A DNA stretch of 64,000 bases from Zoroaster sp. YZ-2022 (taxonomy: Eukaryota; Echinodermata; Asteroidea; Forcipulatida; Zoroasteridae): assembly GCA_029582265.1 (NCBI GenBank), contig CM055816.1:20331843-20395842 (forward strand), written 5' to 3'. Position 1 is the first letter of the stretch. Each line of letters starts with the position of its first letter. The position numbers were made by a program, and so were the translations under genes. Positions 41,401-44,400 of the stretch are shown here, one piece after another. The notes beneath the pieces were generated by a model, which saw only the letters and a program-made list of their open reading frames with translations, was not told the DNA's origin and searched no databases.

Positions 41401-44400
41401 GAAAATGTCAATTTATTTTCATAAATATTAAATACGAAAAGCATGGTCTTTGGTCACTGTCTTTCGCATTGCTGGTGTAATTGTCTTTGTACTTGCAGGT
41501 AACGTACAGTAGGTCTACTGATGAGTAATGATAAATCCCACCGATCCACTTATTGCATGACGTAATTGTTTGCCACGCCCCATTTGGTTCCCAAGAAAAG
41601 TTTGTCCAATAATGATAACGTAATTTGCGGTGAGCACAAGTCAATCACAAAACGATAGGTCAGTCGTACAAAATCAGTTCAGGGTACACTCACCACGTGC
41701 GTGCCTCGAACCAAAGGTTTTAAGCATAGTGCGGGCACACTGGGAAGCTAGCTTTGGACGTGAAACAACGAACACGCCTAAAAGTGGCCCTGCATAAGCA
41801 TAAACACGTACTGCTTGCATGGTTATTTATTTTGTGTATAGGACTAGGCTAATCGATTTGAAATAACAAGGGTGACCGTCAACTTATTGGTATTTCTTAA
41901 CGGCGACTTAAATATAAACAAGATCTATTCAATGCGTTCATTTTATGGGGTTTAGGTGGACTTCCCTCTGTTGACATGAGATGAACGTAACTGCGCGTGA
42001 CTTAGCATGTGCTCAATGTGCACTGTTAATGCTAATTTGTGCTGGAAGTTTCCCACGCTGCCAGAGTAATAACTCGACGGCGATTGGATTTTCACTTACG
42101 AAAATGTATTATTTCGAGTACAATTTTGCAAGAAATAAAGAAAAAACAACAACAGGCATGAAAGAGCTTAATGTATGTGTTTGTTTGTTGTCTGAATGTT
42201 ACAAATAGGCCAGAAATTACTATCAAAGCAATTGTTTTTAATGCTTTAGTACTTTTATAAACCGCGGGAAAAAATGGCCAACTATTCGCGAATAGTCGAT
42301 TATTCGCGAATAGTTGCGCGCGATTAATCGAATAGTAAATTTTTACTATTCGCCCAGGCCTACCCTCTATGCATTTGAATGGATTTGAATGGTAGTAAAG
42401 CTTGCTACCAACACTGTTCAAATGGTATCACCATGTGTGTACAAAACCAATGGGCATTTATGAAAGTGGAAATTTTGAATGGTTTCAAATGGTCTATCAG
42501 TAGGAAGGTTAAAAACAGCAAAACAATAATATTTAGACTTCTGCTTCCTTTCAGCCGGATAGTTCGGTCCTTCCGTTCTTTGATTCCCTCATCCAGCAGT
42601 CAGATATAGACGATATATTTGCTTTGCAACTCTGTGGAATTCCAAATGTAACAGACAACTCATCCAAAACAGATGTGACTGGAACTATGGTAAGACATGA
42701 AAACAAATGTGACTGGAACTATGGTAAGACATGAAAAGAAATGTGACTGGAACTATGGTAAGACATGAAAACAAATGTGACTGGAACTATGGTAAGACAT
42801 GAAAACAAATGTGACTGGAACTATGGTAAGACATGAAAAGAAATGTGACTGGAACTATGGTAAGACATGAAAAGAAATGTGACTGGAACTATGGTAAGAC
42901 ATGAAAACAAATGTGACTGGAACTATGGTAAGACATGAAAAGAAATGTGACTGGAACTATGGTAAGACATGAAAACAAATGTGACTGGAACTATGGTAAG
43001 ACATGAAAAGAAATGTGACTGGAACTATGGTAAGTCATGAAAACAAATGTGACTGGAACTATGGTAAGACATGAATACAAATGTGACTGGAACTATGGTA
43101 AGACATGAAAACAAATGTGACTGGAACTATGGTAAGACATGAAAACAAATGTGACTGGAACTATGGTAAGACATGAAAACAAATGTGACTGGAACTATGG
43201 TAAGACATGAAAACAAATGTGACTGGAACTATGGTAAGACATGAAAACAAATGTGACTGGAACTATGGTAAGACATGAAAACAAATGTGACTGGAACTAT
43301 GGTAAGACATGAAAACAAATGTGACTGGAACTATGGTAAGACATGAAAACAAATGTGACTGGAACTATGGTAAGACATGAAAACAAATGTGACTGGAACT
43401 ATGGTAAGACATGAAAACAAATGTGACTGGAACTATGGTAAGACACGAAAACAAATGTGACTGGAACTATGGTAAGACATGAAAACAAATGTGACTGGAA
43501 CTATGGTAAGACACGAAAACAAATGTGACTGGAACTATGGTAAGACATGAAAACAAATGTGACTGGAACTATGGTAAGACACGAAAACAAATGTGACTGG
43601 AACTATGGTAAGACACGAAAACAAATGTGACTGGAACTATGGTAAGACACGAAAACAAATGTGACTGGAACTATGGTAAGACATGAAAACAAATGTGACT
43701 GGAACTATGGTAAGACACGAAAACAAATGTGACTGGAACTATGGTAAGACATGAAAACAAATGTGACTGGAACTATGGTAAGACATGAAAACAAATGTGA
43801 CTGGAACTATGGTAAGACATGAAAACAAATGTGACTGGAACTATGGTAAGACATGAAAACAAATGTGACTGGAACTATGGTAAGACATGAAAACAAATGT
43901 GACTGGAACTACATGTATGGTAAGACATGAATACAAATGTGACTGGAACTATGGTAAGACATGAAAACAAAATAAGGGAAGAAAATTTTACCCAACCTCC
44001 AAATATCCACAGGATCACAGTACTGGAGATTAATACTTAGTTAATCCCTAGAGACCACACAAAGGGACTCCCAGCTGATTTTTAATCCCTTATTCATCAT
44101 AGACATGAATACCACAATACCCACATGAAGGCTGATTTGCATAATGCATGCATAAAGTCTTCTGGTCTCCTCGCATTTTTAATTTTCTTTTTTTTTGCTA
44201 TGAAATAACATCCAATTGCAGCCAAAATTGCAGGATCGATTGGAATTCTGCCATGCTGTGTTTTAAACAACTTTTTCACAAAGGGGTATGAACATTTGCC
44301 CGATTTATGAGGCCTCTCTTAGCCACCATACTTTGTATATGGGAAATTTGGTCTCCACATATACAATGTATCATGTAAATTAAAAATGCTGATGTGTGGG

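Follow-up and report, generated by a model that had tools for sequence, protein, structure and literature searches.

The window, the whole 64,000-nucleotide stretch of the genome of the deep-sea starfish Zoroaster sp. YZ-2022 analysed here, contains a beta-secretase (BACE) gene on the forward strand. Between the first active-site exon and the stop (38398..58994), ten coding exons were recognised, which join into one open frame: exon a (38398-38486), exon b (39423-39642), exon c (42555..42689), exon d (47133..47267), exon e (47644-47748), exon f (49154-49309), exon g1 (51151-51226), exon g2 (54711-54803), exon h (57179-57232) and a last exon (58747-58994) that ends in the stop of the joined frame. 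The initial annotation had called the gene BACE, and this assignment is correct: exons c-f match PF00026, and BACE1 structures are matched by exons b-f (best E 1.6e-88). The nearest database proteins belong to the starfish Asterias amurensis, Acanthaster planci and Patiria miniata, and in the alignment the identity of the BACE pieces is 78% with Asterias amurensis, 70-72% with Acanthaster and Patiria, and 52% with one lancelet protein. On these figures a lancelet source for the sequence was rejected.

Exons c and d are each 135 nt long and in phase 0. Exon c aligns to BACE1, lies between the acceptor ttcctttcag and the donor ATG/GTAAGA (the slash marks the exon-intron boundary), and ends in GlyThrMet. 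At the protein junction of exons c and d (GTM/TIGG) there are no inserted residues relative to eight of nine aligned database rows, which come from starfish, brittle star, urchin, sea cucumber, lancelet and chicken, nor relative to the two human BACE1 chains for which an alignment was shown. The ninth row, the predicted Patiria isoform X2, is without exon d and joins GTM straight to the following exon, which confirms the end of exon c. This predicted Patiria miniata isoform misses exactly 45 residues, corresponding to exon d, the exon that follows the repeat array described below.

Tandem Repeats Finder, run on the window, identifies a 34-bp minisatellite at 42666-43971 (period 34, 38.2 copies, 97% matches, score 2453) that begins inside exon c and continues into the intron. 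Within 42673..43971 on the forward strand, 38 ATG/GTAAG donors can be counted, in agreement with the roughly 38 first proposed, with first intron bases running from 42690 to 43954. Consecutive donors are 34 bp apart in 36 of 37 steps and 40 bp apart in the remaining one, where there is an insertion ahead of donor 37. The unit is, as had been described, an exact match to the final 17 bases of exon c plus the first 17 of its intron, and homology between unit and exon extends 7 bases deeper into exon c with one mismatch. The residues encoded by exon c are common to other starfish, so that the exon is the older element and gave rise to the array. The interior variants are patterned rather than uniform: five of units 1-10 carry G at +15, unit 11 has a single T at +6 and unit 12 a single T at +13, units 13-22 are all ten identical, and C occurs at +9 in six of the nine units 23-31.

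Donor 1 (GTAAGA, 42690..42695) is the sole donor that keeps the conserved BACE frame, and the frame test and the conserved junction together bear out the proposal that it alone yields full BACE. Donor 2 adds 34 nt and shifts the frame, so that translation would end at a stop 29 nt into exon d. With donors 3-38 the product takes in an in-frame TGA 42 nt beyond exon c, close to the expected distance of about 43 nt. The frame test printed 12 of the 38 donors, and the unprinted ones likewise hit this TGA because all longer extensions contain it. Every later donor gives a premature stop upstream of later junctions.

Because each unit repeats 17 exon bases, the exonic side of nearly every donor in the array is identical. 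Of the donors described as near-identical, 37 of 38 have the same 12-nt site (U1 duplex -8.0 kcal/mol); the exception is donor 11 (GTAAGT, 43030..43035), where a T at +6 makes the best U1 match in the array (-9.1 kcal/mol). Both energies fall inside the range of the seven other BACE donors scored (-7.3 to -11.9 kcal/mol; the g1 donor was left out). With U1 pairing equal in 37 donors and better in donor 11, sequence strength would not explain a preference for donor 1.

The position of the array across a splice junction is in itself unremarkable here. After 56 Tandem Repeats Finder rows were merged by hand into 41 arrays, these arrays occupy 8,271 bp (13%) of the window; between exon a and the last exon (38398-58994, 20.6 kb), 16 arrays occupy 5,344 bp (26%). 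When five arrays of at least 10 copies were placed at random, at least one of 19 junctions was covered in 51% of trials, in a test that takes no account of selection against arrays within exons. The 38-copy array itself is not random sequence. Other large minisatellites lie in BACE introns at 49585-50725 (38 bp x 30), 51323-52089 (98 bp x 7.8) and 55179-56153 (14 bp x 67), and these three overlap no recognised exon. The window also contains two gaps of exactly 500 N each (4144-4643 and 26949-27448), of the type that some Hi-C scaffolding pipelines leave.

A candidate origin for the unit can be read from its flanks. A single-unit boundary would hold two copies of AAAACA with an offset of exactly 34 bp, one spanning exon positions -24 to -19 (42666..42671, the proposed slippage site) and the other intron positions +11 to +16. 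Among 200,000 stretches of 58 bp drawn at random from the window, 3.3% have a run this long at 34-bp spacing, which makes the fit suggestive without proving it. A slip between the two copies can in principle produce the 17 + 17 unit, including the lone base at which unit and exon differ. We had also considered that the mismatch at exon position -18 was a mutation or an ancestral residue (Asn in Asterias); this reading was dropped, as the AAAACA slip can leave exactly that base mutation-free.

We then searched the whole assembly (1,001,958,528 bases, 616 contigs) with a 161-bp DNA query spanning the exon end, and read 30 kb around each of the five copies outside the window. The exon end is present at at least six places, all on one scaffold. 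In this one assembly, the window copy (A) has 38 donors, copy B (9.34 Mb) 9, copy C (31.2 Mb) 12, copy D (26.35 Mb) 28 and one broken, and copy E (41.3 Mb) 3; the sixth, copy F, is taken up below. Exon c is open in B-E, and blocks of B-E aligned to the window are 83-99% identical, mostly 91-98%. Over exons a-g1, the ten pairs of A-E show pS of 0.028-0.056, pN of 0-0.008 and zero stops, in a count that left out B exon a and C exon b for their length differences and took exons a-e of D.

GTAAG is kept in 90 of the 91 donors of copies A-E. Their 86 complete units contain seven substituted sites, none of them in the eight donor-core positions, and seven are too few to judge selection for or against decoy donors or to show neutrality. 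The decoy donors are unsilenced, which would agree with their being harmless and equally with recent homogenisation. D and E both start with a unit that has C at +9, and in A, D and E the final complete unit carries T at +13; these shared edge variants suggest that the array is probably older than the block duplications, with stable edges and a changing interior.

The downstream exons were found at fewer of these places. Reading beyond g1 for 12.6 kb in B, 7.8 kb in C and 26.8 kb in E revealed no exon g2, h or last exon, and in D none of exons f, g1, g2, h and last was found within the 30 kb read, which includes a 500-N gap. In the whole-assembly search the last exon was found at at least two places, A and F, where the counts are lower bounds. 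B-E therefore look partial in the assembly, the last exon being at A and F only among the matches listed; for the same reason they may be non-functional, their low pN possibly inherited from functional alleles. In copy B, intron c-d is enlarged by about 180 units of an 89-bp minisatellite (16.5 kb), of which C and D have about 4-6 units, and copy D contains exon a twice, about 2.3 kb apart (positions 432-518 and 2747-2832 of its stretch), one with an indel.

Copy F (20.6 Mb; scaffold 20572223-20602222) is inverted and error-rich, with about 37.6 units of about 33 bp. Its landmarks follow the order of A: T at +6, then AATAC, then a final ACATGTA-type insertion. The alignment of F with A, about 5.3 kb long, shows 270 substitutions together with 206 indel runs; for A and E, compared over about as much sequence at different gap settings, the figures are 113 substitutions and 38 gap openings. 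We rejected F as a sixth gene, since it has a 2-kb insert otherwise present only in A and errors like those of unpolished sequence of the same locus. It is probably an unpolished second contig of locus A left in the assembly, and if so its similar unit number supports the array length of A. The insert itself (40378-42362, about 2 kb) is unaligned in B-E, carries TTCGCGAATAG-like repeats near its end, and may have been inserted as a mobile element.

In copies C and D the far end of the same intron is amplified as well. The repeated unit here is 143-144 bp long and comprises the acceptor, about 60 nt of the intron and the opening 83 nt of exon d. C has 24 exon-d starts (23 decoys and the real one), 21 of them with an exact AG/ACAATTGG, and D has 13 (12 decoys and the real one), all 13 exact. 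This repeat is present in C and D, and exon d of the window is not so repeated. The last acceptor is the BACE-coding one; the decoys lead to a stop 105-156 nt into the product in the ten cases printed of 32 tested. The coding pair in C and D is the first donor with the last acceptor, 1 of up to 288 combinations in C or 364 in D. Exon definition would predict this same choice, as each is the nearest partner across a 135-nt exon. In the window, a perfect 3 x 34-bp repeat (47026..47127, forward strand) lies upstream of the exon d acceptor and ends 5 bases before exon d; its counterpart in copy E has 14 units. Such a repeat would multiply branch-site and pyrimidine-tract sequence.

We think it likely that the BACE array is a mirage, a near-neutral minisatellite that spans a splice boundary, was born by slippage and is kept harmless through exon definition. 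A slip between the exonic AAAACA (19-24 bases inside exon c) and the intronic one (+11-16) would have duplicated 34 bp, and later unequal exchange may have brought growth to 38 donors. The donors look usable, yet the array most likely acts as intron in the cell. Under exon definition, the acceptor of exon c would pair, before any decoy has been transcribed, with the donor that lies closest to it (135 nt away) and is made first. Leaky use of a later donor would make frameshifted or stop-bearing messages exposed to nonsense-mediated decay, and the array would stay close to neutral while its length drifts. In support of donor 1, it alone preserves a protein junction conserved from starfish to vertebrates. 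Against this reading stands donor 11, which pairs better with U1 than donor 1 does. Two-donor minigenes often favour the donor closest to the 3′ splice site, and this too counts against a preference for donor 1.

Structures of this type have been described in lancelets. Ebner and colleagues reported tandem duplications of 5′ and 3′ boundaries in lancelet globin genes (PMC3087553), and PGBD5 and troponin C were added to the lancelet mirages (PMC3902484). In the reported cases (Adh3, BflGb6, BflGb9, troponin C and PGBD5) the unit spans an exon-intron boundary, with splice signals in many, and the BACE array is alike in both respects, with 17 + 17 bases per unit and a usable-looking ATG/GTAAG in 38 of 38 donors. 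As those reports describe it, both 5′ and 3′ boundaries can be amplified in lancelets and the length varies between haplotypes (PMC3087553, PMC3902484); RT-PCR suggests regular splicing of the globin and Adh3 mirages, and mirages have been proposed as a source of, or raw material for, introns (PMC3087553). The starfish belongs to a different phylum, and its array reaches 38 copies, against 6 and 3 given for two BflGb6 haplotypes. Donor and acceptor arrays on one intron, as in C and D, do not figure in the accounts of lancelet mirages that we consulted. As in intron gain by tandem duplication of splice-site sequence, duplication of the boundary supplies new splice sites (PMC3087553); unlike in cases such as that given for potato RdRp (PMC4974935), no new intron is seen in starfish BACE.

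A second precedent, and the closest one with measurements, is the VNTR of human ABCA7 intron 18, whose 25-bp unit is present in about 12 to 427 copies and includes the exon 18 donor (PMC5954066). In both genes a canonical donor sits in the first unit (in ABCA7, as its first two bases), and the next donor would keep one unit and shift the frame. The ABCA7 unit, by the paper's description, starts at GT and so holds no exon bases, whereas the BACE unit repeats 17 of them. One-unit retention in ABCA7 is reported for about 2% of transcripts at steady state; it adds a stop, rises with cycloheximide and is independent of VNTR length, while a longer VNTR is accompanied by more exon 19 skipping and lower total expression (PMC5954066). 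Neutrality of the BACE array is not assured, given that in ABCA7 expression falls, and the following exon is skipped more often, as the VNTR gets longer. The human TERT intron 6 VNTR, of 38 bp, is likewise an intronic minisatellite, and its copy number can alter splicing; unlike the BACE array, it is described as lying more than 1 kb from exon junctions and acting through RNA pairing with distal pre-mRNA (PMC3948165). Among open-licence titles and the opening lines of abstracts we saw no mirage from a starfish or other echinoderm and no two-ended case, which is weak evidence of absence. The starfish BACE array is a new case of a known structure, that of the lancelet mirages and the human ABCA7 VNTR.

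The array would be without effect if the window copy were a decaying pseudogene from which no functional message is made, a reading that we find unlikely. The N-terminal coding region (33087..33302, forward strand), located by tblastn with Asterias BACE and by its reading frames, does carry at least three frame shifts in the assembly relative to that protein, but one of them resembles a G run that has lost length, a common site of long-read error, and copy F shows that unpolished-looking sequence occurs in this assembly. The ten recognised downstream exons nevertheless make one open frame with intact-looking splice signs, and the last exon was found only here and in the error-rich duplicate F, counts that are lower bounds. 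With exon 1 frameshifted and at least one shift at an apparently error-prone G run, the window locus is likely, though not proven, to be functional.

The array could instead be regulatory, its many U1 sites sending a copy-number-dependent share of transcripts to decay-prone isoforms or to skipping of the next exon and thereby setting BACE output; the initial annotation had raised a similar role, and we regard it as improbable. It would fit the premature stops that all later donors produce ahead of later junctions, and exon d, the exon that would be skipped, is 135 nt long, in frame and absent from the predicted Patiria isoform X2. By analogy the reading is conceivable, as ABCA7 shows that length can matter: its VNTR length correlates with lower expression and more next-exon skipping (PMC5954066), and the 38-bp TERT VNTR is reported to require nine or more copies to promote exon skipping (PMC3948165). 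ABCA7 unit retention, however, is unaffected by array length in the same report (PMC5954066), and the more than tenfold differences in length among the related blocks, though these look partial, do not point to a maintained set point.

That the copy number is an artefact, the true array being much shorter or longer, seems to us very improbable. Polishing can homogenise repeats, and copy F hints at redundancy in the assembly. WTDBG2 was used to assemble the Nanopore reads, with short reads for polishing (PMC10394057). F, however, is far less clean and still contains 37.6 units, each of about 33 bp, whose landmarks match those of A in kind and order, and the interior unit variants are patterned rather than uniform. 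From these features, assembly is an unlikely source of the array.

We give almost no credence to array self-pairing, by which the self-complementary ACUAUGGU around each donor would let neighbours mask each other and leave the edge donor free: the donor-donor duplex has 8 pairs (-8.6 kcal/mol) and donor 1 is predicted to be more open (0.052) than the median of the others (0.017), ranking 2 of 38 at three local-window settings, but the array folds no more stably than shuffled sequence (z -0.40), donor 37 is far more open (0.51), so that the wrong donor would be used, absolute openness is low, and protein-free RNA folding is a weak guide. A search of the window for conserved RNA structure gave no Rfam match at gathering thresholds.

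To the initial annotation our analysis adds the mirage and ABCA7 precedents, the extra block copies, and the matching acceptor arrays in two of them. The suggestion that the array offers a natural test of how donors are chosen still holds, and the copy series (3, 9, 12, 28 and 38 donors) strengthens it. Choice among identical donors is usually studied in artificial minigenes. In the related blocks, the donors are nearly all identical from -17 to +5 in near-equal exon context, with a mirrored acceptor series in two. A more speculative prospect, which we rate as rather unlikely, is that the sister blocks, if spliced accurately, would form a graded test in which partner position across the exon decides and not sequence, and, if spliced inaccurately, a heritable dial on beta-secretase dose set by minisatellite length. 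Automated annotation of genomes with such arrays may go astray. With the BACE array an echinoderm joins the published lancelet and human cases that we consulted, and the array suggests how such structures start, by a slip between short repeats that flank a splice site. With the same oddity in lancelets and in human ABCA7, the starfish array is probably harmless, and a very useful natural test.
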